DNA of 53,111 bases from Deltaproteobacteria bacterium. GTDB taxonomy: Bacteria > Desulfobacterota > Syntrophobacteria > BM002. Under the pieces are notes generated by a model, which ran no database searches, was not told the DNA's origin, and saw only the letters and a program-made list of their open reading frames with translations. Of the stretch, positions 11,415-23,866 are shown one piece after another (the first letter of the stretch is position 1; each line of letters starts with the position of its first letter). The translations under genes and the position numbers were made by a program. Where the stretch lies: the NCBI GenBank assembly GCA_019309045.1, contig JAFDGZ010000013.1, positions 1 through 53,111 of the forward strand, written 5' to 3'.

Positions 11415-12335
11415 GTGGCTGTGAACTTCAGGGACCTGGTGAGTATAGAGGGAGTGCGGCTGGCGGTGGCAGCAAGTGAGCGCCTCCTGGATACAGTCAT
11501 TCTGTCGCCTCACCTCCACGGGTTGGCCAGCCTGCAGGGGCCGCGGTTGCCTATGCCCCAGAGGGGGCTGGTTTTTGTTCTCGAGGACAGCGATCTGGAA
11601 GAGCTCTGGGCAGCCGAGCCGCTGCTGGCGAGATTCAACGCCCTGCTGCCGGCTGTGGTCCTCCTGGAGGCGGCTGGCGGGGCTGTGCAAAGGGTGCAGC
11701 AAGAGTGTTCTTCTGCAGATCTGCTGGTGTGCACCGCCAGCGAACCCCTGAAGGTTGTGGCGGCGAGGCTGGCGCAGAGGCTCTTTGCTGCTGGGCGTCG
11801 GTTGGTGTCGATCCACGCTGTTATGCTGCGGCTGCAGGGCAGGGGAGTTGTCATTCTGGGCAGCAGCGGCAGCGGCAAGACGGATGTGGCCCTGGAACTG
11901 ATCAGCAGGGGGCATCAGCTTGTTGCTGACGATGGTGTGGAGATATATTGTCCCTGTCCAGGAAGTGTCTGGGGCAGGTCGCCGCTGCCCGAGGGTGGCA
12001 ATAGATTGGCAGTGTATGGTATTGGTATTATCGCAGCAGACCAGCTCTACGGGGAAAATGCGGTGGCTGCCGAGGCCCCCATCTGCCTGGCAGTGGATCT
12101 GGTGGATAATGAGACCTACAGAGATCCTCTCGAAGAACAGGGGCAGTTATTCTATCTCATGGGGGTAGGCGTACCATATGTGGCCCTGAATCCTGCCAGA
12201 TCTGCCAATCTGGCGACGCTGGTGGAGCTCGCCATGAGAGTGCGGGGCAGAGAATTCCGGCGTAGTGGTGAGCTGGCCGGGCAACACTCCGAAGTGTCCG
12301 GTGTTGGGGACAGCCGCAGAGGGAGTGGTCAGTGA
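11415..12335 (+). CDS. hprK: HPr kinase/phosphorylase-like protein
   Basis: In its family it phosphorylates and dephosphorylates HPr on a serine. The 306 residues have a variable N-terminal domain (about 1-130) and a C-terminal P-loop domain: Walker A GSSGSGKT (about 154-161) and LELISRGHQLVADDGVEI, which carries the conserved aspartates. The region matching the usual HprK signature reads AVYGIGIIAADQLYG, which departs from the common RGLGI pattern. The tail (about 285-306) is Gly/Ser-rich and not conserved. The start is GTG at 11415, or possibly GTG at 11421. The stop overlaps the rapZ start. Its HPr substrate is not encoded in this window. Confidence 0.85.
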   Translation: MAVNFRDLVSIEGVRLAVAASERLLDTVILSPHLHGLASLQGPRLPMPQRGLVFVLEDSDLEELWAAEPLLARFNALLPAVVLLEAAGGAVQRVQQECSSADLLVCTASEPLKVVAARLAQRLFAAGRRLVSIHAVMLRLQGRGVVILGSSGSGKTDVALELISRGHQLVADDGVEIYCPCPGSVWGRSPLPEGGNRLAVYGIGIIAADQLYGENAVAAEAPICLAVDLVDNETYRDPLEEQGQLFYLMGVGVPYVALNPARSANLATLVELAMRVRGREFRRSGELAGQHSEVSGVGDSRRGSGQ

Positions 12336-13228
12336 GACAGGCAGGTGGTGGACAGCCAGGCAATTCAGGACTGATTGTCATTGTCACCGGACTTTCTGGC
12401 TCGGGCAAGAGCACAGCCATAAAAGCGTTCGAGGATCTGGGCTTCTTTTGTGTGGACAATCTTCCTGTGCTGCTGCTGCCTGATTTTCTGGCCCTGCGCC
12501 AGCAGGGTTCTGAAGATTTGCGCTATATTGCTCTCGGTATGGATATCCGCGAGCGGCGTTTTCTCGAGAGCTATCCACAGATATTCAGCGAACTCTATCA
12601 GAAGGGAGCACACCTGGAGATTCTCTTCCTGGAGGCATCGAACGAGGTGCTGCAGCGCCGCTTCAGTCAAACTCGACGGAGGCATCCCCTGGCTGGCATA
12701 GACACGGTGCTCGAAGGAATAGAGGCCGAGCGTCGCCTTCTTCTGGATCTGAAGCGCATGGCTACCAGGGTGCTGGACACTTCCAACACCAGTGTGCACG
12801 AGTTGAAGCGGCTGGTGTCAAGGCTGTACAGTTTTCGTCCAGATCTAGAAGGCTTGCATGTCCACCTGCTCTCTTTTGGCTTCAAATATGGGGTGCCGCC
12901 TGAAGCAGACATTGTTATGGACGTGAGATTCCTGCCTAACCCATTCTTTGTGGACGATCTCAGGGATCTCGACGGCACCGGACAGCCAGTGATCGAATTC
13001 GTCTGCAGCAGGGAGAAGTCGCAGGTTTTCTTGCAGCGCTTCACCGATCTGCTCTTCTACCTTCTGCCGCACTACCAGGAAGAAGGGAAAAACTATCTTA
13101 CCATTGCCATCGGCTGTACCGGCGGCAAACACCGTTCTGTGGTGATCGCCGGGGAGCTGGCACAGCGTCTGGCAGCCGAGGGCTACAAGGTGGACGTCAA
13201 TCACCGAGATATGAAGGTGGAATTATAG
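12332..13228 (+). CDS. rapZ: RapZ-family nucleotide-binding protein
   Basis: In E. coli RapZ guides RNase E to the small RNA GlmZ and so controls amino-sugar synthesis; outside the enterics its role is less clear. The 298 residues have the Walker A GLSGSGKST (about 20-28), the VDNLP segment after it, and the C-terminal region with FKYGVPPEADIVMDVRFLPNPF and the phosphate-binding GCTGGKHRSV. The start is a GTG inside the hprK stop (GTGA), giving a 4-base overlap and translational coupling. Confidence 0.95.
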   Translation: MRQAGGGQPGNSGLIVIVTGLSGSGKSTAIKAFEDLGFFCVDNLPVLLLPDFLALRQQGSEDLRYIALGMDIRERRFLESYPQIFSELYQKGAHLEILFLEASNEVLQRRFSQTRRRHPLAGIDTVLEGIEAERRLLLDLKRMATRVLDTSNTSVHELKRLVSRLYSFRPDLEGLHVHLLSFGFKYGVPPEADIVMDVRFLPNPFFVDDLRDLDGTGQPVIEFVCSREKSQVFLQRFTDLLFYLLPHYQEEGKNYLTIAIGCTGGKHRSVVIAGELAQRLAAEGYKVDVNHRDMKVEL

Positions 13229-13315: not shown

Positions 13316-13726
13316 ATGGTGGGACTGCTCGTGGTGACGCATCGAGATCTGGCCCAAGAGCTCATTGCCACTGCTGAACTCATTGTGGGAGAGATCGACA
13401 ACTGTGTGGGGCTCTCTGTACAGCCCGATGTGCCGGTAGACGACCTGCGCCGTCAGATGCACCAGGCAATCGACCAGGTAAACAGCGGTGACGGCGTGAT
13501 TGTGCTCACGGACATGTTCGGGGGGACTCCCAGCAACTTGAGCCTGAGTTTTTTGAATCAGCAGGGCATAGAAGTGGTCACTGGAGTGAATCTGCCCATG
13601 CTCATCAAGCTGGCCACCGCCCGCCAGGATTCGGAGGTGGGTGAACTGGCCAAACTCATAAAGGATTATGGCCGGCGAAGCATTTCCCTTGCCAGCGAAA
13701 TCCTGGAAGGCGGCCCAGAATCATGA
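13316..13726 (+). CDS. PTS mannose-type IIA domain protein
   Basis: A single-domain EIIA(Man) protein of 136 residues. The phosphorylatable histidine is His9 in LLVVTHRDLA, and the second family motif is TDMFGGTPSNL near residue 62. A good ribosome binding site (AAGGAG) precedes the ATG. In related bacteria this gene is often followed by EIIB/C/D, HPr and EI genes; here it is followed instead by rimI and a dikinase-like gene. That makes a sugar-transport role unlikely and a regulatory one more likely (inference). Confidence 0.92.
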   Translation: MVGLLVVTHRDLAQELIATAELIVGEIDNCVGLSVQPDVPVDDLRRQMHQAIDQVNSGDGVIVLTDMFGGTPSNLSLSFLNQQGIEVVTGVNLPMLIKLATARQDSEVGELAKLIKDYGRRSISLASEILEGGPES

Positions 13727-13838
13727 GTCAACTGCAGGCAGGGCCGGACAGGCGAGATATGGCCAGGTCAGCAGCGACAGGCTGCCAGCAAGGCACTGCT
13801 CTGTTCTCCGGGCGCACTCAACAGCGACACCTGTTTCC

Positions 13839-14366
13839 ATGAAGCAAGACTGCAGCTATTCACAGCTTACCTTCAGAGCAATGCATCCCATGGACCTCCC
13901 CGAGGTCTTGGCCATAGAGAGGACGAGTTATGTCAATCCCTGGACAGCGGAGCTCTTTCTGGCCGAAATGGCCAAGAGTCATGCGGGACAGCGAGTGGCC
14001 AGGCTTGCCACAGGGCTAGAGGCAGGCACCATTGTCGGCTATATCTGCTACTGGCTGGTGGTGCCCGAGATAGAAATTGTCAACCTGGCGGTGCACGCTG
14101 CTCACCGAGGATGCGGCCGCGGCCGAAAACTTCTGCTGCATGCTCTCGGTTTGGCATATAATAAAGGTGTCAGACTGGCGACGCTGGAGGTCCGCCGAGG
14201 CAATGAAGCAGCCCGTTTTCTCTATGAGAGGCTGGGCTTCCGAACAGTGGCCGAACGCGCCAATTACTATGCCGAGTATGGGGATGCAGCCCTGATCCTG
14301 CAGCTGCAGATGGATCATAGGTGGTGGCACAGATGGCAGCAGAATTGTTCACTTCCGAGGCGCTGA
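13839..14366 (+). CDS. rimI: Ribosomal-protein-alanine N-acetyltransferase, RimI-like
   Basis: A GNAT-fold acetyltransferase of 175 residues. The pattern fits RimI, which acetylates the N-terminus of ribosomal protein S18: TFRAMHPMDLPEVLAIE at the start, NPWTAELF, the acetyl-CoA binding loop HRGCGRGRKLL, and LEVRRGNEAARFLYERLGF. I chose the ATG at 13839, because the frame is open further upstream but that part overlaps the EIIA gene and has no family similarity. The C-terminal 20 residues (HRWWHRWQQNCSLPRR) overlap the next gene and are probably poorly conserved. Confidence 0.88.
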   Translation: MKQDCSYSQLTFRAMHPMDLPEVLAIERTSYVNPWTAELFLAEMAKSHAGQRVARLATGLEAGTIVGYICYWLVVPEIEIVNLAVHAAHRGCGRGRKLLLHALGLAYNKGVRLATLEVRRGNEAARFLYERLGFRTVAERANYYAEYGDAALILQLQMDHRWWHRWQQNCSLPRR

Positions 14367-17300
14367 GAATCAACCTGCAGAAAACCAGGGTGCGGGTGGA
14401 CATCGAGCCGCGCTACCAGATCCTGGCCGAGGTGGTGCGTCAGTATGCCGGCATCGAACAGCAGACGCGAAAGATGCTGCTGGAGTTGAGCCATCCCTAT
14501 AGAAATTGGGCCTATGTGGTGCAGGAGGCGCGCCGCTACGGCCTGAAGAACTTCGGCATTTACCTGAGCCATGCCAGAGGCGCCACAGTATTCTCCCTGC
14601 TGGCAGATATTTTTCTAGAGGCCATAAACAGCTGCCGCGACCGTCAGACCCAGGTGCAGGCGGCAGACAATCTCATCGTCCTGGTGGAGCGTCTGGCGGC
14701 AGACGGCACAGGCCGGGTGCAGCAGTACGGCGGCGTCCTGCAGCAGGTGCTGGCCAACATGGCTGCTTTGCCGGCTGACAGCTTTTTCCTGGTAGCCAGC
14801 AGCTATTACTCCCTGAAAAAGATCGGCAGGCATCTACTGGAAGACTGGCGTGGGGTCATGGACCTGGACAGCTATTGCAGGCTGGTTAGCAGAGCCCTGG
14901 GCACCGCCTATGAGTACTGGCTGGAGCAGGAGGACCCTCAGAAGTGGTTCGCCGACCAGGCTGACCAGTGGTGGGATCAGCAGGAGCATGGCCCCCCACT
15001 TGCCCCTGTTTCTCACCAGCGGCTGCAAATTCTCAGACGACAATTGCAGGAGATTGAAAGCAGCGGAACTGCGGTCGCCAGAACAGAGCGCCTCCTTGAA
15101 CTGCCAGACTACATGGACATTGTGCGCTATTATGAAAGGCTGCCCTCTCTGCTCGGCAGTGACCGACCGTTTCCCAAAGTGCTCATACTCTACAAGATCA
15201 TCGAGAACAGAGGACTGGAAGTCATTCATGAAGACAGCCTGCGGCAGATCAACTACTCCCTGGCCCAGATCATCCAGCAGCAGCCTCTCCAGGTGCTCAG
15301 CGCCTTTCTAGAGCGCACCTTCTCGGTACTGCAAACAAGCAAGAAACTCCATCCTGAGCGGGCCCTCACCTGCATAGCCACCATTGGCAAGGAGGTGTTC
15401 AAGACAGGAAATCGTCGTCTCATCGACCAGTTCCTGGGGCTCACCATCTCTGCTGGCTTCGAGTTTCCCGGCAGCTATGCGGTAAGCGTTGACTGGCAGC
15501 TGTTGACCAATCCTGTCCATATTCACAATATCCGGGTGTGGCTGGAAATCATTGCCCATGATCCCAGGCAGGCGCCCCGGCTGCTCTCCGCCCTGCTGGT
15601 AAATCTTGCCCTGGGAGGAGTCTGTATTCGGGACACTGATATTTTCCAGAGGGATGTGAGCAAGCTTCTCAACAGCCGGATAGAGCCGGTGTACAACCTG
15701 GTAAAGCAGCTCGCCCGGGTGTTTCCAGTGTATTTCAATGAAATTGGTGCTGAGGGCAGGCTGCGCGAAGTTTCCACGGAAATCGACGAACTCTGCCGCC
15801 GGAAGGATCCCCTTATCCACTTCTTGCGCAAATTGAGTCACGTGGAGAGCAGTAACACCATTGTCGATTTCATGAACGCCATTGCTCTCTACTGGTTGTC
15901 CAAAGATCCCGAAGCAGTGCGCCATTTTGTGCCCGTGGAGATTTACCAGCAGCTTCAGCCGCAGGGACCCTATATTGACGAGGCGCACCTTGTCTTGCGC
16001 CGGCTGTTCGAGGCACACGGGCTGCAGCAGCCCAGAGATCTCCTCAAATTGGACCTGGAGCGATTGGCAACTCACCTGGAGCGCATTGCCGGGGCCTCGG
16101 CCCGCGAAAAGAAGCGAGTTGCTCTCTTTGTGGAGTTCTACCATCTTCTGGCCCAGAAGTATCAGAGCGGAATTCAGGATGTGGTCAGCGAACTGCAAAG
16201 AGCACAGCAGCTGGGCATGCCGGCTGCTGCAGAGCTGATCCAGCGGTTGAACTCTGCAGAGAGCTCTCAGCAGTTGCTTGCCCTGCTCGACTACCTGGAA
16301 AAGCTGAAAGAGATTATTCTCTCCGAGAAGCAGACGAGCGGTTTTGCCAACATCTATCGCAAGCGCCACATTGCAGTGGATATACCCTCTCTGTACGGCA
16401 CCTACCATGAAAGAAAGTTTGATGCCCTGGGGCTTAGCTTCCGTCTAGAAAACGTGGCCAATACTCTCTTTACCGAGAGGATGGCTGCCATGAACCTGCG
16501 CTTTGTTACCCGGGCAACCTTTTTTCAGATCAGCAAGTTCATCAAGCTTCTCATTCGGGCCCTGGAGCTGGAGGGTATCAACTGTCGTCCTTTGAAAAAG
16601 CAGCTGGCGCTTCTCGACAAGGCCCTGGAAATCAGACGTTTCAGTTATTCCCAATATCTCGATATTTTCCGCGGCTTTTCCCTGGCTATTAAACAGATTA
16701 TTGCTACCTACTATCAGCACCCGCATCAGGACAACCTCAACCTGGTGCTGCAGAGTCTGACTGCCAACCAGCTGGTGCCCCGCTATCGACTTGGCAGTGA
16801 CAGCGAGAGCCAGGGAGACTTTATCCACAAGGTCTCGGAGGCCTTGCTGCGGGACCTGGTAGCCCGTACATTCGGTCTGCAGTGTTTTGATAATCTCATC
16901 AGCAGGGTCATCAATACCTTGAACAAGCAGAGGGTATCTTTGGACACGCAGCGGTTGGATCTTCTCATGAGTTACGATCCTGAGAAGGCCCTGTGCTCCA
17001 TTGTCAAACCCAACAAGCTCACCTACGATCTCATTCATCTGGGCAGCAAGGGCTATAATCTGGTGGTGCTGGCCGAATACGGCATTCCGGTTCCCGAAGG
17101 CTTCATCGTCACCACGGAGATCTACCGCTGCTTCGAGGTGCTGCAGGCATTTCCGCCCGCCTTCCAGGATTTTCTCCAGCGGGTCGCCGAGCACATCAGC
17201 TCCCTGGAGGCGGCCACGGGCTGCTGCTTCGGCCGGGCTGCCAGACCTCTGCTGCTATCGGTGCGCAGCGGTGCCGCCGTGTCCATGCCCGGTATGATGA

Positions 17301-18511
17301 ACACTTTCCTCAATGTGGGCATCAATGAGGAAATCGTCGAAGGCCTCATCCAGGAGACCGGTGAATGGTGGTTCGCCTGGGACAGTTATCGACGCTTCCT
17401 GCAATCGTGGGGCATGGCCTTTGGCATGGATCGAGACGAGTTCGACACCATCATGAACGACTACAAACAGCGGTACGGCCGCGAGTTGAAGCGGCAGTTC
17501 AGCCGCAGGGAGATTCGAGAGGTTGCCAGGGCCTATCGGGGCGCTCTGCAGCACAGGGGTGTTGCCCTGACGGACGATCCCCACGAGCAGCTGCGAACCG
17601 CCATTGTCCAGGTAATGAAGTCCTGGCAGAGCCCCAAGGCCAGGACCTATCGTGAAATCATGGGCATCTCGGACAACTGGGGCACTGCCGTTACTGTACA
17701 GGCAATGGTCTACGGAAATCTGGACACGAATTCCGGGGCGGGCGTCGCCTTTACCCACAATCCAAGAAAAATGGACGACCGGCTGCATCTCTGGGGGGAC
17801 TTCACGCTCGGCAACCAGGGAGAAGACGTGGTGGCCGGCCTGGTCAAGACGCTGCCCCTGTCTGAAGAGCAGAAGGTCGCTGAAGGACGCAGCGAAGAGA
17901 TCTGCCTGGAGAGCCGCTTTCCAGAGATTTACAGCCGGCTGCAGGAGCTGGCTGAGCGGTTGATTGCCGAACATGGCTGGGGTCCGCAAGAAATCGAGTT
18001 TACTTTTCAGGGAGGCGGCGGCAATGGCCTGTTTGTCCTGCAGTCAAGAGATATGCACAGACCGACCTCGCGGCGCTACTGCATCTTTTCCAAGGCTGCC
18101 CGGCTGGAGGAAGCCTATCTCAGCAGCGGCATCGGGGTCAGCGGCGGCGCTCTCAGCGGCAGGGCTGTGTTCAACCTGGGCGAGATCGAACGCTATCGGC
18201 AGGAGGCGCCCGGCGAGCCGTTGATCCTCGTCAGGGCGGATACCGTGCCTGACGACATCAAGGAGATATCTGCGGCAGACGGCATCCTCAGCGCCCGGGG
18301 CGGCGCCACTTCCCATGCGGCCATTGTTGCCTATCGTCTGGGCAAGACCTGTGTGGTTGGCTGCGATCAGCTGCGGGTGTGGGAGAATGAATCTCGCTGC
18401 CTGTTGCGGCAGCATGAAATTAGAGCGGGAGACCCGCTGAGCATCGACGGCCGCAGCGGCGCCATTTATCTGGGTAGACAGCCCACAGAGACCGTGGAAT
18501 TGTGGCAGTGA
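14333..18511 (+). CDS. Large dikinase-like protein: ATP-grasp and phosphohistidine domains, no PEP/pyruvate barrel
   Basis: A protein of about 1392 residues. The first 890 residues are helical and unrecognised. Then comes a PPDK-type ATP-grasp domain (about 890-1230: LGSKGYNLVVLAEYGIPVPEGF, SVRSGAAVSMPGMMNTFLNVG, QAMVYGNLDTNSGAGVAFTHNP). A swivelling phosphohistidine domain follows (about 1250-1385) with the catalytic histidine in GGATSHAAIVAYRLGK and the typical ADTVPDDIKEISAADGIL. The protein ends there, so the C-terminal TIM barrel of pyruvate phosphate dikinase is absent. Like rifampin phosphotransferase or glucan water dikinase, it may move phosphate from ATP through histidine to an acceptor bound by another domain (inference). 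The ATG at 14333 overlaps rimI; a GTG at 14321 is an alternative. It directly follows PTS-type genes. Confidence 0.85.
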   Translation: MAAELFTSEALRINLQKTRVRVDIEPRYQILAEVVRQYAGIEQQTRKMLLELSHPYRNWAYVVQEARRYGLKNFGIYLSHARGATVFSLLADIFLEAINSCRDRQTQVQAADNLIVLVERLAADGTGRVQQYGGVLQQVLANMAALPADSFFLVASSYYSLKKIGRHLLEDWRGVMDLDSYCRLVSRALGTAYEYWLEQEDPQKWFADQADQWWDQQEHGPPLAPVSHQRLQILRRQLQEIESSGTAVARTERLLELPDYMDIVRYYERLPSLLGSDRPFPKVLILYKIIENRGLEVIHEDSLRQINYSLAQIIQQQPLQVLSAFLERTFSVLQTSKKLHPERALTCIATIGKEVFKTGNRRLIDQFLGLTISAGFEFPGSYAVSVDWQLLTNPVHIHNIRVWLEIIAHDPRQAPRLLSALLVNLALGGVCIRDTDIFQRDVSKLLNSRIEPVYNLVKQLARVFPVYFNEIGAEGRLREVSTEIDELCRRKDPLIHFLRKLSHVESSNTIVDFMNAIALYWLSKDPEAVRHFVPVEIYQQLQPQGPYIDEAHLVLRRLFEAHGLQQPRDLLKLDLERLATHLERIAGASAREKKRVALFVEFYHLLAQKYQSGIQDVVSELQRAQQLGMPAAAELIQRLNSAESSQQLLALLDYLEKLKEIILSEKQTSGFANIYRKRHIAVDIPSLYGTYHERKFDALGLSFRLENVANTLFTERMAAMNLRFVTRATFFQISKFIKLLIRALELEGINCRPLKKQLALLDKALEIRRFSYSQYLDIFRGFSLAIKQIIATYYQHPHQDNLNLVLQSLTANQLVPRYRLGSDSESQGDFIHKVSEALLRDLVARTFGLQCFDNLISRVINTLNKQRVSLDTQRLDLLMSYDPEKALCSIVKPNKLTYDLIHLGSKGYNLVVLAEYGIPVPEGFIVTTEIYRCFEVLQAFPPAFQDFLQRVAEHISSLEAATGCCFGRAARPLLLSVRSGAAVSMPGMMNTFLNVGINEEIVEGLIQETGEWWFAWDSYRRFLQSWGMAFGMDRDEFDTIMNDYKQRYGRELKRQFSRREIREVARAYRGALQHRGVALTDDPHEQLRTAIVQVMKSWQSPKARTYREIMGISDNWGTAVTVQAMVYGNLDTNSGAGVAFTHNPRKMDDRLHLWGDFTLGNQGEDVVAGLVKTLPLSEEQKVAEGRSEEICLESRFPEIYSRLQELAERLIAEHGWGPQEIEFTFQGGGGNGLFVLQSRDMHRPTSRRYCIFSKAARLEEAYLSSGIGVSGGALSGRAVFNLGEIERYRQEAPGEPLILVRADTVPDDIKEISAADGILSARGGATSHAAIVAYRLGKTCVVGCDQLRVWENESRCLLRQHEIRAGDPLSIDGRSGAIYLGRQPTETVELWQ

Positions 18512-18674
18512 GCGCCTGCCGGGTTTGTGGACAGACAGGCTCTGACATGCGTGGCAGTCAAGGCCTGCTGCAGGTGGTGCCGGTTGTGGCTGCGGCTCGT
18601 CTGCTGCCGGGCAGGCCCCGGGCTCTGTGCCGGCGGAGGCTGCCGGTGACACCGTTTACTGCTCGTTTTGGGGA

Positions 18675-18703
18675 TTTACATTTTCGGGCAGTTGGGCTAA
18701 GCT
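18675..18703 (+). promoter_or_regulatory. Candidate sigma-70 promoter upstream of GAPDH-like gene
   Basis: TTTACA (18675-18680) and TAAGCT (18698-18703) are spaced by 17 bases. A transcript from here would start near 18710, just before a hairpin and an intrinsic terminator. Confidence 0.45.
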
Positions 18704-18714
18704 AACAGTCAGTA

Positions 18715-18729
18715 GCCTCGTCACGAGGC
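18715..18729 (+). promoter_or_regulatory. Leader hairpin
   Basis: GCCTCG-TCA-CGAGGC forms a 6-bp stem with a 3-base loop, between the candidate promoter and the terminator. With the terminator it may form an attenuator for the glycolytic genes. Confidence 0.45.
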
Positions 18730-18754
18730 AGCGGGCTGAAGCCATTTTCGAGGG

Positions 18755-18775
18755 GAGCCGGGCGGGCTCTTTTTT
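18755..18775 (+). terminator. Intrinsic terminator before GAPDH-like gene
   Basis: GAGCC-N5-GGCTC is followed by six T. It lies 245 bases after the dikinase-like gene and 60 bases before the GAPDH-like gene. It could end the upstream operon or attenuate the downstream one. Confidence 0.65.
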
Positions 18776-18835
18776 CATCTTTCTTCCTATTTTTCATCAG
18801 GCAGCAGAAAAACGTCACCTTGCTAGGGGTTGTCT

Positions 18836-20101
18836 ATGAACGGTGCCAGCACACATGACGGCAAAGGTTCTCATGTCAAACTGGGAATCAACGGCCTGGG
18901 GCGCATTGGCAAGCTGAGCCTGTGGCATCAGGTGGAGCGAGGCTACTTTGCCGAAATCGTGGTGAACACAGGACGGCCTGCAGGCCGCAGTCTGGAAGAC
19001 ATAGCCCTTTTCATAGAAAAGGATTCTACCTACGGCAGTCTGCACCACTATCTCTATGGCTGCCGGGCCAGGCGTGTTATCGAGCAGCTGGATGAGAGCA
19101 GCGGCCGCATGCTCATCAACGGCATCCCGGTGACCGTGCTGCGCCAGCATCGAAATCCTCGCCATCTCGACTGGCGGCAGCATGGAGTGGAGCTGGTGCT
19201 CGATGCCACTGGCAAGTTTCGAGATCCAACTCTGCCAGCCGAGCACGAGGGCGGCTCAGCGCGGGGGCATCTTGCTGCCGGCGCCAAGAAGGTGGTCATT
19301 TCTGCGCCATTCAAAATAAGCGAAGCGGCTGGCAGCCTGCCGGATGATGCAGTCACCACCATTGCCGGCATCAATGACACGGACTATGATCCCCAACGGC
19401 ATGTGATCGTCTCGCATGCCTCCTGCACCACCACCTGTCTGGCCTACATGCTGAAGCCTCTCATCGACAGCTTCGGTGTGGACCGCATTCTGTCGGTTTC
19501 CATGGCCACGGTGCACGCCAGTACTGGCAGCCAGCAGGTTCTCGACCACCTGCCCAAGGCGGGTGCCAAAGATTTGCGGAGAAACAGGAGCATCTTCAAC
19601 AATATCATCCTGACGTCTACCGGGGCAGCGCAGGCCCTGGCGCAAGTTCTGCCCGAGATGAGGAAGATCCCCTTTATCGCTGAATCCGTCCGCATACCGA
19701 TCAATACTGGCTCCCTCATCATTCTGGTGGTCAATTTTCAAGAAATGCCAGACCGGCCATATGTGGACAGAGAGCAGATAAACAGGGTTTACCGCGAACA
19801 CGCTGCTCTTGATCCCAGGGGTTATTTGCGCTACACGGAAGAGCAGAACGTTTCCAGCGATATTATTGGCCTCCAGGGAGTGGCTGCCACCATAGAGGGT
19901 CACGAGACGCACACTCGCACTGCGGCTGTGGCCATAGACCTCTCGCGGGCTCTACCCGGCGACATGGTGCAGAGACTGCCCGAGACCACTCTGGAGATAC
20001 CCATTACCAAAGCGGTCATCTATGGCTGGTATGACAATGAATTGGGCTCCTATAGCTCCATGCTGGCTGACAGATTGATCAGCATGGCTGAGCTGCTTTG
20101 A
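18836..20101 (+). CDS. Divergent GAPDH-family paralogue
   Basis: A 421-residue member of the glyceraldehyde-3-phosphate dehydrogenase family, about 85 residues longer than the canonical gap encoded next door. The NAD-binding start is LGINGLGRIGKLSLW. The catalytic cysteine is in SHASCTTTCLAYMLKP, where the near-invariant SCTTN has threonine for asparagine. The histidine is in MATVHAST, and the C-terminal GWYDNELGSYSSM is conserved. An insertion lies in the N-terminal half (YLYGCRARRVIEQLDESS). Cysteine and histidine suggest an active aldehyde dehydrogenase on a phosphorylated aldehyde, but the substrate may differ. The ATG at 18836 has AGGGG seven bases upstream; an in-frame TTG at 18830 is less likely. 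Confidence 0.85.
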   Translation: MNGASTHDGKGSHVKLGINGLGRIGKLSLWHQVERGYFAEIVVNTGRPAGRSLEDIALFIEKDSTYGSLHHYLYGCRARRVIEQLDESSGRMLINGIPVTVLRQHRNPRHLDWRQHGVELVLDATGKFRDPTLPAEHEGGSARGHLAAGAKKVVISAPFKISEAAGSLPDDAVTTIAGINDTDYDPQRHVIVSHASCTTTCLAYMLKPLIDSFGVDRILSVSMATVHASTGSQQVLDHLPKAGAKDLRRNRSIFNNIILTSTGAAQALAQVLPEMRKIPFIAESVRIPINTGSLIILVVNFQEMPDRPYVDREQINRVYREHAALDPRGYLRYTEEQNVSSDIIGLQGVAATIEGHETHTRTAAVAIDLSRALPGDMVQRLPETTLEIPITKAVIYGWYDNELGSYSSMLADRLISMAELL

Positions 20102-20200: not shown

Positions 20201-21208
20201 ATGGCTGTTAAAGTTGGTATCAATGGTTTCGGTAGAATTGGTCGTACTGCGATGAAAATTGCCGCCCGGGAACCCGGGCGGGTGGAAGTGATGGGCGTCA
20301 ATGACCTGGGAACCCCGGAGGAGCTGGCCCACCTGCTGCGCTACGACTCATCACACGGGCGCTTCGACATTCCCGTGGAGGTCAGAGACGGCAATCTGGT
20401 GGTGGGCGGCAAAGAGATTCGCTGCACTCAGATCCCCCAGCCCGAGAATCTCCCCTGGAAGGAGCTTGGCGTGGAGGTGGTTCTGGAGTGCACTGGACGC
20501 TATCGCGACAAAGAATCCTGCATGGCCCATCTGCAGGCAGGGGCTCGCAAGGTGATCATCAGTGCCCCGGCGAAAAACGTCGATGCCACCTTTGTGCTGG
20601 GGGTGAACGAGGAAGACTATGATCCCAGGAATCATACGGTGGTCTCAAATGCCTCCTGTACCACCAATTGTCTGGCTCCAGTGGCCAAAGTACTGCACGA
20701 CACCTTCAACATTGAACATGGCTTGATGACCACCATCCACTCCTACACCATGGACCAGAGGCTGCTGGACACCCTGCACAAGGACTGGCGCCGGGCGCGG
20801 GCTGCAGCCCTTTCCATGGTCCCCACCACCACTGGTGCTGCTGTGGCAGTGTCGCTGGTGATACCCGAGCTCAAAGGCAAGCTGGACGGCATGGCCATTC
20901 GGGTGCCTACTCCCAATGTGTCCCTGGTCGACCTGGTGGTGCGGGTAAGCCGCGAGGTTACGGTGGCTGAGGTGAACGGCGCCATGGAGGAGGCTGCCAA
21001 CGGCCGCTTGCAGGGAATCCTGGGCTACAATACTGAACCGCTGGTATCTGTCGACTTCAACACCAGTTCTTATTCTTCCATTGTGGACGCCCCTCTGACC
21101 AATGTGATCGACGGCAGAATGGTGAAGGTGTTGAGCTGGTACGACAACGAGTTTGGCTACGCCAACCGCCTGGTGGATCTGGCCCACTACATTGGTGAAC
21201 GACTGTAA
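20201..21208 (+). CDS. gap: Glyceraldehyde-3-phosphate dehydrogenase
   Basis: The canonical glycolytic/gluconeogenic enzyme of 335 residues, oxidising glyceraldehyde-3-phosphate with NAD(P) and phosphate. The Rossmann motif is VGINGFGRIGR at residues 4-14, the active site SNASCTTNCLAP is near 150, the catalytic histidine is in TTIHSYT, and SWYDNEFGYANR is near the C-terminus. A strong GGGGAGG ribosome binding site precedes the ATG. It is followed by pgk and tpiA on the same strand, giving the lower-glycolysis order gap-pgk-tpiA. Confidence 0.98.
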   Translation: MAVKVGINGFGRIGRTAMKIAAREPGRVEVMGVNDLGTPEELAHLLRYDSSHGRFDIPVEVRDGNLVVGGKEIRCTQIPQPENLPWKELGVEVVLECTGRYRDKESCMAHLQAGARKVIISAPAKNVDATFVLGVNEEDYDPRNHTVVSNASCTTNCLAPVAKVLHDTFNIEHGLMTTIHSYTMDQRLLDTLHKDWRRARAAALSMVPTTTGAAVAVSLVIPELKGKLDGMAIRVPTPNVSLVDLVVRVSREVTVAEVNGAMEEAANGRLQGILGYNTEPLVSVDFNTSSYSSIVDAPLTNVIDGRMVKVLSWYDNEFGYANRLVDLAHYIGERL

Positions 21209-21361
21209 AAGGTGTTGCTGCCCTCCCAGGGAACGGCAGCGCCAGAAAGGGCAGCAATATTCAACGAAGAGATGGGTTTGCAGGCACTCTGACGTTAGGC
21301 GGCTCTCCGCAGCCGCCAGATTGGCCTGTACCGCAGCACAACTAGCATGAGGGAGACCTCC

Positions 21362-22552
21362 ATGAATATTCGCAGCATTGATGAGATGCCGCTTGCTGGC
21401 AAGAGGGTGTTCATGCGCGTTGATTTCAACGTCCCTTTGAGCGCCGACGGCAAGGTGGCCGACGATCACAGGCTGCAGGCCGCCCTGCCGAGCATCCGCT
21501 ACAGTCTGGAGCAGGGCGCCCGTCTGGTGCTGGCCTCTCATATGGGCAGACCCAGGGGCAAGAAAGTGGCTGAGTTAAGTCTAGCTCCAGCCTGCCAGCA
21601 GTTGGACAAGCTCCTGGGGCAGCCGGTAAAGCTGGCCCCTGACTGCATCGGCGCCGAGGTGGAGCAGCTGGTCTCTTCCCTGGCTGGAGGAGAGGTTCTT
21701 CTGCTGGAGAACCTCCGCTTTCATCCTGGTGAAGAAGCCAATGATCCCCAGTTTGCCCGCTCTCTCGCCAGGTTGGCGGATGTCTATGTAAATGACGCCT
21801 TTGCAGTGAGCCACCGAGCCCACGCCTCCACAGTGGGCATCACCGAGTTCGTTTCGTCCTGCGGCGCTGGCTTTCTTCTGAAAAAGGAGCTGGAGTACTT
21901 TGAGCGCACCATGGAGAATCCCCAGAGACCCGTGGCAGCGGTCCTCGGTGGGGCAAAGGTATCCACCAAGCTTCCTGTGCTCAGACGGTTCGCCGAGCGA
22001 GTGGACCGCCTGATCATCGGCGGCGCTCTGGCCAACACCTTTCTCAAATCTCAGGGTGCTGATCTGGGTGACTCCCGGGTGGAGACCCAGCTGCTGGCGG
22101 AGGCCGAGCAGGTGCTGCACCTGGCGCGCCAGCGAGGAGTGCAGGTTTATCTGCCGGTTGACTTTGTCATTGCCCGGGAGCTGACTGCCGGCACAGCTAC
22201 CAGAGTGGTGCCTGCGGCTCAGGTGCCGCCTGGCTGGTCCGCCTTCGATGTGGGGCCCGAGAGTCGCAAACTCTTTCAGGAAGCTCTGGCAGGGGCGAGG
22301 ACCATCATCTGGAACGGACCCCTGGGTGCCTTTGAAACAGCGGGATTCGAGGGCGGCACCATGGCCATGGCCGCCAGTGTGGCGGCAAGCGATGCGGTCA
22401 GTGTGGTGGGCGGCGGCGATACAGATCTTGCCCTCCACATGGCGGGATTGGTGCAAGAGGTCTCCTACGTGTCCACCGGAGGCGGCGCTTTCCTGGAGCT
22501 TTTTCAGGGCAAGGTGCTGCCGGGCGTGGCAGCCCTGGAAAGCTGCAGGTAA
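21362..22552 (+). CDS. pgk: Phosphoglycerate kinase
   Basis: Transfers phosphate between 1,3-bisphosphoglycerate and ADP. The 396 residues are typical for bacteria. Substrate-binding motifs are RVDFNVPL near the N-terminus and [11 protein letters not shown]. The nucleotide-binding region includes [23 protein letters not shown] and [12 protein letters not shown] prefer the ATG at 21362, with AGGGAG about 8 bases before it, over the in-frame ATG at 21347, which has no good site. Confidence 0.98.
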
Positions 22553-22673: not shown

Positions 22674-23438
22674 ATGTCGCCTCGTACACCTTTGCTGGCC
22701 GGAAACTGGAAGATGCATTTTACTGTGGCAGAAGCATTGACGCTGGTGCGGGAACTCGAAGACGGCCTGCAGAAGTTGGACGACCGCCAGGTGGTGGTGG
22801 CGCCGCCCTATACAGCCCTGGCCGAGGTGTCTCGGGTGCTGGCGGGCAGCCCCATTGAAGTGGCCGCCCAGAACTGCCACTGGGAGAGCCAGGGCGCCTA
22901 CACCGGAGAAGTTTCGGTCGGCATGCTGGCGGATGTGGGCTGCCGCTATGTGATCGTTGGCCATTCGGAGCGGCGCCAGTATTTCGCAGAAACTGATGAA
23001 AGCGTCAATCTCAAGGTCAAGGCCGTTATCGAGGGAGGCCTGACAGCCATTGTCTGTGTTGGCGAAACCCTGGCCGAGCGCCAGGCCGGCAATACCCTGA
23101 AAGTCCTGGAGAGGCAGCTGCTGGGAGCCTTTGCAGGCCTCAGCGAACAGCATGAGTTCAGTCGGCTGGTGCTTGCCTATGAACCAGTGTGGGCTATTGG
23201 CACCGGCCAGACGGCCACCACAGAACAGGCCCAGGAAGCGCATGCCTTCCTTCGCGGCAAGCTGGCAGAGCGCTTCAACAAAAATGTTGCAAACGAGATC
23301 CGTATATTGTATGGTGGCAGCGTCAAACCCGAGAATGTGGATGCGCTGATGGCGCAGCCTGACATCGACGGCGCTCTGGTTGGCGGAGCGAGCCTGCAGG
23401 CGGCCTCCTTCAGGCGCATTGTTGCCTTTGAGACCTAG
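22674..23438 (+). CDS. tpiA: Triosephosphate isomerase
   Basis: Interconverts dihydroxyacetone phosphate and glyceraldehyde-3-phosphate. It is a 254-residue TIM barrel. LLAGNWKMH carries the catalytic lysine near residue 14, IVGHSERR the catalytic histidine, VLAYEPVWAIGTG the catalytic glutamate, and ILYGGSVKPENV the phosphate-binding loop. A GGAGAAGG ribosome binding site precedes the ATG. secG follows after 50 bases. Confidence 0.98.
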   Translation: MSPRTPLLAGNWKMHFTVAEALTLVRELEDGLQKLDDRQVVVAPPYTALAEVSRVLAGSPIEVAAQNCHWESQGAYTGEVSVGMLADVGCRYVIVGHSERRQYFAETDESVNLKVKAVIEGGLTAIVCVGETLAERQAGNTLKVLERQLLGAFAGLSEQHEFSRLVLAYEPVWAIGTGQTATTEQAQEAHAFLRGKLAERFNKNVANEIRILYGGSVKPENVDALMAQPDIDGALVGGASLQAASFRRIVAFET

Positions 23439-23488: not shown

Positions 23489-23866
23489 ATGCAGACCATA
23501 CTGGTAATAGTGCATGTGCTTATAAGTATTGCACTCATCATAGTTGTTTTGCTGCAAACTGGTAAAGGCGCCGACATCGGCGCAGTATTCGGCGGCTCCT
23601 CGCAGACGCTGTTCGGCTCCAGCGGAGGCAGTACTTTTTTCAGTAAACTCACCACCATAGTGGCAATCATTTTTATGCTCAGCTCACTCACCCTGGCCTA
23701 TCGCTCTCACCAGTATGGTGGGGAGTCGGTGATGAGCAACGTCAAGCCTGCGGCCACGGCGCCCGCCAGTACAGAGGGGCAGGCCGAACCTGCCAAGGCG
23801 GCAGCTCCTGCAGCCCCGGAGGCAGCAAAGAGCAGCCCGCCTGCCGCAGAAAAGGCGGCCAAGTAA
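23489..23866 (+). CDS. secG: Protein translocase subunit SecG
   Basis: The small inner-membrane subunit of SecYEG that stimulates preprotein export. The 125 residues have two transmembrane segments (about 3-22 and 50-68) around the conserved loop LLQTGKGADIGAVFGG and GSSGGSTFFSKLT. The tail from about residue 85 is a long Ala/Pro/Glu-rich low-complexity stretch, common in SecG of this group. The tpiA-secG-tRNA(Leu) order is widespread in proteobacteria. Confidence 0.95.
   Translation: MQTILVIVHVLISIALIIVVLLQTGKGADIGAVFGGSSQTLFGSSGGSTFFSKLTTIVAIIFMLSSLTLAYRSHQYGGESVMSNVKPAATAPASTEGQAEPAKAAAPAAPEAAKSSPPAAEKAAK

Follow-up and report, generated by a model that had tools for sequence, protein, structure and literature searches.

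A giant barrel-less dikinase and a modified glyceraldehyde-3-phosphate dehydrogenase that occur together in two bacterial phyla

Dikinases that lack the PEP/pyruvate barrel have hitherto been associated with antibiotics, with glucans, with aromatics and with the methylcitrate cycle. RPH and HpeHI carry out the ATP-dependent phosphorylation of a non-pyruvate small-molecule acceptor, and the acceptor domain of RPH had no structural homologue when it was solved (PMC4844700, PMC12167813). VadK (Rv1127c) of Mycobacterium tuberculosis is a barrel-less derivative of PPDK; it is reported to phosphorylate itself, to interact with methylcitrate synthase/dehydratase and to modulate the flux through the methylcitrate cycle (PMC13400623). 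The protein examined here belongs to this known kind (RPH, HpeHI, VadK) by its catalytic half. It is encoded in a deltaproteobacterial stretch of DNA of 53,111 nucleotides (the window; Table 1), and it represents a large dikinase family with an uncharacterised putative acceptor domain, found strictly together with a modified GAPDH that we call GapX. No description of this pair or of the acceptor domain was found in the open-access literature searched.

Table 1. Positions of the dikinase, its domains and the neighbouring genes in the window
Feature	Position	Strand	Remarks
rapZ	12332-13228		between hprK and EIIA-Man
RimI-like GNAT acetyltransferase	13668..14366	+	between EIIA-Man and dikinase; 3' end overlaps dikinase start
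Giant barrel-less dikinase, 1392 aa	14333..18511	+	start ATG 14333 or GTG 14321
N-terminal region, residues 1-898	14333..17026	+	AlphaFold2: almost all-helical, one beta-hairpin at residues ~671-692
Conserved core of N-terminal region, residues 360-853	15410..16891	+	alignments A3/A4
PPDK-type ATP-grasp domain, residues 903-1243	17039..18061	+	catalytic residues intact
Swivelling phosphohistidine domain, residues 1252-1386	18086..18490	+	phospho-acceptor H1328 = 18314-18316
gapX, GAPDH-like protein of 423 aa containing insertions	18830..20101	+	retains catalytic Cys (at 19424-19426) and His (at 19514-19516)
gapA, ordinary class I GAPDH	20201..21208	+	TIGR01534 441.8 bits, above cut-off
pgk, phosphoglycerate kinase	21347..22552	+	
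tpiA, triose-phosphate isomerase	22674..23438	+	
secG	23489-23866		after tpiA

The dikinase reading frame is open throughout, and its similarity to PPDK runs from about residue 903 to 1386 (phmmer, 6.7e-82 to 1kbl). An earlier reading of the window from its letters (the sequence-only reading) had placed a PPDK-type ATP-grasp and a GGATSHAA phosphohistidine domain at the C-terminus with no PEP/pyruvate barrel after them, and both points hold. The last ~490 residues comprise these two domains, with Pfam matches to PPDK_N (1.6e-31) and to the PEP-utilizers mobile domain (5.3e-19); in Foldseek comparisons, the ATP-grasp matches 1kbl (E 8.4e-31) and the His domain matches 2fm4, the PPDK phosphoryl carrier domain (TMt 0.81). 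GGATSHAA occupies residues 1323-1330 (window 18299-18322). No barrel domain was matched in Pfam, and the protein ends 64 residues past H1328 and therefore lacks the PEP/pyruvate barrel; its score against TIGR01828 is 393 bits (cut-off 843). K906, R978, E1222, Q1237, R1239 and H1328 are the equivalents of PPDK K22, R92, E323, Q335, R337 and H455, residues with known roles in PPDK, and they show no variation in any relative covering these positions. Their invariance indicates an intact ATP site and an intact phospho-His site, and the alignment thus answers the concern that ATP-grasp catalytic residues might have been lost. The dikinase is also far closer to PPDK than to PEP synthase (phmmer), which makes Pi its presumed co-substrate.

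Relatives of the dikinase, ~1360-1420 aa in length, always carry the same fusion of N-terminal region and dikinase, and the family numbers more than 500 loci in the species-level genome collection. Virus-borne copies were not found among viral contigs, and PADLOC gave no match that would place the protein in a defence system. The missing PEP/pyruvate domain could in principle mark a degenerate PPDK or an inactive fusion relic, but this is the least credible of the explanations considered: the ATP-site residues and H1328 do not vary in any covering relative, the protein is conserved over its full length across two phyla, and the genome has other genes that provide for PEP synthesis, one of them a 942-aa PPDK-like ORF.

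The ~890 residues in front of the catalytic half had been described as unrecognised, and this description stands, as residues 1-890 have no Pfam match (including Pfam searches on 25 members) and no PDB sequence-profile match, nor does the PDB sequence profile relate the region to the acceptor domains of RPH/HpeHI. AlphaFold2 models of residues 2-896 (pLDDT 87, pTM 0.80) and 205-1392 (pLDDT 87, pTM 0.73) agree on an N-terminal domain that is almost wholly helical, with a beta-hairpin near 671-692. For this region, Foldseek searches of the PDB with the two models returned generic helical repeats only (TM <0.2), so that neither structure prediction nor profile search matched a known fold or family. 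The core of the region is nevertheless highly conserved in an alignment of 73 relatives. A set of polar residues (H396, D434, Q439, E470, R478, D485, D492, R499, K500, H503, K609, Y610, K677, R678, H679, Y691, E693, K695, R704, D777, R840 and D853) is invariant in 10 aligned sequences that span the GapX-linked and the divergent subfamily (second phylum). This set may mark a site that binds an anionic acceptor or acts on it catalytically.

The gene order in the window is rpoN, hpf, ptsN, hprK, rapZ, EIIA-Man, rimI-like, dikinase, gapX, gapA, pgk, tpiA and secG. The dikinase gene had been said to follow ptsN, hprK and EIIA(Man) directly, which is incorrect, as the RimI-like gene intervenes and rapZ separates hprK from EIIA-Man. 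The HprK-like kinase (11415-12335, between ptsN and rapZ) scores 107 bits against an HPr kinase cut-off of 240, and no homologue of it was found in any other locus examined. The PTS cluster had also been taken as incomplete; the genes for HPr and EI are present in the genome, together, on another contig. Pfam matches to the Enzyme I features, PF05524 (HPr-binding N-terminal domain) and the PEP barrel, were absent from the dikinase.

The sequence-only reading had proposed that the dikinase is an ATP-driven entry into the PTS phosphorelay, phosphorylating PtsN, EIIA-Man or HPr, and the presence of ptsN, rapZ and EIIA-Man near the dikinase in the window and in approximately one quarter to one third of the relatives agrees with it. 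Linkage of the homologues to ptsN/hprK, expected to be constant, is however not conserved: among loci with at least 5.5 kb of upstream sequence, 31/116 contain ptsN and 33/116 contain EIIA-Man, and PTS genes are thus missing from most of them. The closest relatives (L042-L045, 57-59% identical) carry GapX and no rpoN or PTS genes in the stretch covered, where L042 and L045 could show the upstream genes and the short contigs L043 and L044 could not. EI is absent in 17 of 80 dikinase-bearing genomes and HPr is also absent in 16 of these 17; in at least 11 of the 17, EI, HPr and PTS_EIIA_2 are all absent. Loci L179-L181, from genomes of ~1.6-1.8 Mb (G082, G148 and G174) in which EI, HPr and PTS_EIIA_2 are all absent, keep hpf-rapZ-rimI-dikinase-gapX (with rpoN too in L180 and L181) and have no ptsN or EIIA-Man. 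The dikinase family is therefore not dependent on PTS proteins. With GapX, and no PTS protein, tracking the dikinase perfectly, the PTS proposal becomes highly improbable; it is ruled out for the family as a whole, and may apply as a lineage-specific side role. What stands of the earlier proposal is that the N-terminal region binds an acceptor, which is plausible for a large uncharacterised region; a PTS protein as that acceptor does not stand.

Of the 297 genomes in the window's phylum, 89 were matched by A3, the profile of the dikinase N-terminal region. A6, the profile of GapX, gave an identical list of 89 at a cut-off of E <= 1e-130, which could hide weaker GapX-like proteins (the weakest best match was 1.5e-194 or 8e-194). 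In a second phylum, to which L067 belongs (record title Nitrospirae), 15 of 148 genomes gave strong A3 matches, and A6 matched the same 15 (cut-off E <= 1e-60, all matches <1e-198). Within the GapX-linked subfamily, 104 genomes are thus concordant and none in either phylum is discordant (dikinase without GapX or the reverse), although gene presence tends to follow families and the genomes are not independent events. In at least 15 genomes the two genes are widely separated or sit on separate contigs (e.g., the single-contig genomes G068 and G231), so that linkage alone does not explain the match. We consider an obligate functional partnership of dikinase and GapX very probable. Genomes G002-G005, G008 and G009, of the same family as the window's genome, gave no full-length dikinase match, several of them being incomplete; near relatives have the dikinase.

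GapX lies within 1.5 kb downstream of the dikinase in 103 of 129 loci. The pairs comprise 77 that are co-directional, most with gaps of less than 60 nt and some with a 4-nt overlap (L062, L179 and L180), and 28 that are convergent, an arrangement that points to function. The gap in the window is 318 nt (18512-18829), compared with <60 nt in most relatives, and it contains a terminator-like hairpin (18750-18774); it has no Rfam match to an RNA element, and its folding is not unusual (z 0.28). Glycolytic/gluconeogenic genes are also neighbours of the dikinase at some of the loci, with gapA nearby in 31/133, pgk in 24/110 and tpiA in 24/110 loci. A mirror-tree comparison of dikinase and GapX was uninformative, since the correlation of their distance matrices (r 0.81) was no higher than with control genes, which correlate equally strongly.

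A divergent subfamily (L201-L206; six further genomes of the second phylum, that of G342), with open frames of 1136-1513 aa and its own N-terminal extension, keeps the ATP-grasp, the His domain and the invariant core of the N-terminal region, and the A6 profile search found no GapX in its six genomes. The dikinase fold can therefore work without GapX. This subfamily would suit a small-molecule dikinase of an unrelated pathway, similar to RPH/HpeHI, whose product is used by many enzymes and whose tie to GapX stems from shared environment or vertical inheritance. The family-wise distribution, by which the 104 concordant genomes are not independent, and a dikinase-GapX distance correlation no higher than that of the controls are likewise compatible with such a pathway. 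We nevertheless consider it improbable, because not one discordant genome was found in two phyla even where the genes are unlinked, and because adjacency is kept in both the co-directional and the convergent orientation.

GapX aligns end to end with GAPDH, its ~90 extra residues being accommodated as insertions, and scores below the curated cut-off of NCBIfam TIGR01534 (GAPDH-I; 312 bits vs 367). Among 33 sequences, Cys185 and His215 (A6 numbering), the equivalents of the catalytic Cys149 and His176 of GAPDH, are invariant together with the phosphate-site equivalents; the Thr179-like and Arg231-like phosphate contacts and a C-terminal WYDNE motif are kept. Asp32 in GAPDH favours NAD. In GapX this position holds another residue, with an invariant Gly-Arg after it, a pattern suggestive of NADP as the cofactor. 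A search for PF02800 (GAPDH C-terminal domain) in 80 dikinase-bearing genomes showed that most also have an ordinary GAPDH, and that GapX is the sole such protein in G082, G117 and G260, which are near-complete (completeness figure given: 100%). In G148, a sister genome in the same genus, an ordinary GAPDH adjoins the dikinase. In the three genomes with GapX as sole GAPDH homologue, GapX would perform the triose-phosphate step, unless GAPDH is bypassed there. The dikinase is intact in G082 and G260 and split by a frame change or stop in G117, which makes G117 the weaker case of a sole GAPDH. Split dikinase ORFs were seen at G117:C1:683961-685584 and G327:C9:33297-34932, with GapX intact in both genomes. 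In G148, a sister genome in the same genus, an ordinary GAPDH adjoins the dikinase.

Our leading interpretation, held tentatively, is that dikinase and GapX form a two-protein enzymatic system of triose-phosphate metabolism: an acceptor in the N-terminal domain of the dikinase is phosphorylated by this enzyme, and GapX uses the product. Phosphate would be taken from ATP by the ATP-grasp, with Pi as the probable co-substrate by analogy with PPDK, and loaded on H1328, from where the swivelling His domain would deliver it to an acceptor held by the helical domain that would have replaced the PEP/pyruvate barrel. The simplest product for GapX would be a phosphorylated C3 compound, at the step that links 3-phosphoglycerate, 1,3-bisphosphoglycerate and glyceraldehyde-3-phosphate, with the flux towards gluconeogenesis. 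We infer the acceptor site in the N-terminal domain, the small-molecule nature and the identity of the acceptor, and the use of Pi. PGK-GAPDH and aspartokinase-ASADH are known couples of a kinase with a dehydrogenase, and a relay from dikinase to GapX would resemble them. Against the enzyme pair, the fold matches of the N-terminal region assign no substrate, most genomes keep an ordinary GAPDH, and the six genomes of the divergent subfamily have a dikinase and no GapX; with gapA and pgk in the window, the pair there is an addition, not a replacement.

Co-occurrence does not separate successive enzymes from an enzyme and its regulator, and the main rival to the enzymatic interpretation is accordingly a VadK-like regulation of GapX. 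The dikinase would then be a regulatory histidine kinase that adjusts triose-phosphate flux by binding GapX or phosphorylating it, with H1328 autophosphorylation responding to ATP, AMP, Pi or PPi and the N-terminal domain acting as the GapX-docking and sensing part. The perfect co-occurrence with a single enzyme favours such a kinase, a mostly helical region could serve as a protein-binding scaffold, and VadK offers the precedent of a barrel-less PPDK derivative that tunes flux (PMC13400623). VadK, however, has no such N-terminal domain, and a conserved domain of ~890 residues is large for docking. The polar invariants, moreover, are kept in the GapX-free subfamily, so that the set is not simply a GapX interface; a site for ligand binding or catalysis accounts for it better than a scaffold that only docks GapX. 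This conservation tilts the balance to the enzymatic interpretation and does not settle it; regulation of GapX is possible, though less likely.

The enzymatic interpretation has a more specific and doubtful form, namely a new route that is coupled to ATP/pyrophosphate and joins 3-phosphoglycerate with glyceraldehyde-3-phosphate, in which the dikinase would convert ATP + Pi + 3-phosphoglycerate to AMP + PPi + 1,3-bisphosphoglycerate and GapX would reduce the latter. If true, the ATP/PPi route run backwards would regenerate ATP from AMP and PPi, the waste products that sulfate activation and acyl-CoA synthetases leave in these anaerobes. The hosts are sulfate reducers and syntrophs, from two phyla of mostly anaerobic bacteria, and the pair would add a novel enzymatic step, or else a novel point of control, to the best-conserved part of their sugar metabolism. 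Since the partner GapX is known, purified preparations of the two proteins would allow a direct test of what the dikinase does.

Compared with the described systems, the dikinase shares with PPDK (1kbl, TIGR01828) the ATP-grasp and swivelling phosphohistidine domains at ~33% identity, with intact catalytic residues, and differs in the missing C-terminal PEP/pyruvate barrel, in the ~890-residue helical domain in front and in having GapX as partner. RPH and HpeHI likewise combine an ATP-grasp and a swivelling His domain with a separate acceptor domain (putative in the dikinase) for a non-pyruvate acceptor, but their similarity is weaker (Foldseek E 4e-5 to 6e-4) and their domain order is different, the putative acceptor domain coming first in the dikinase. 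VadK has the same barrel-less PPDK ATP-grasp and His domain and is also tied to metabolic enzymes, as the dikinase is through its co-occurrence with GapX; it is however a protein of ~50 kDa without a large N-terminal domain, whereas the dikinase has ~890 extra residues that are always fused in the relatives found. The reported partners of VadK are methylcitrate synthase and dehydratase and its hosts mycobacteria, whereas the partner of the dikinase is a GAPDH paralogue and its hosts are lineages labelled Deltaproteobacteria/Desulfobacterota and Nitrospirae. GapX, in turn, resembles class I GAPDH (TIGR01534) in its end-to-end alignment and in its catalytic Cys, His and phosphate-site residues, and departs from it in its sub-cut-off score, its inserted residues and the replacement of Asp32.
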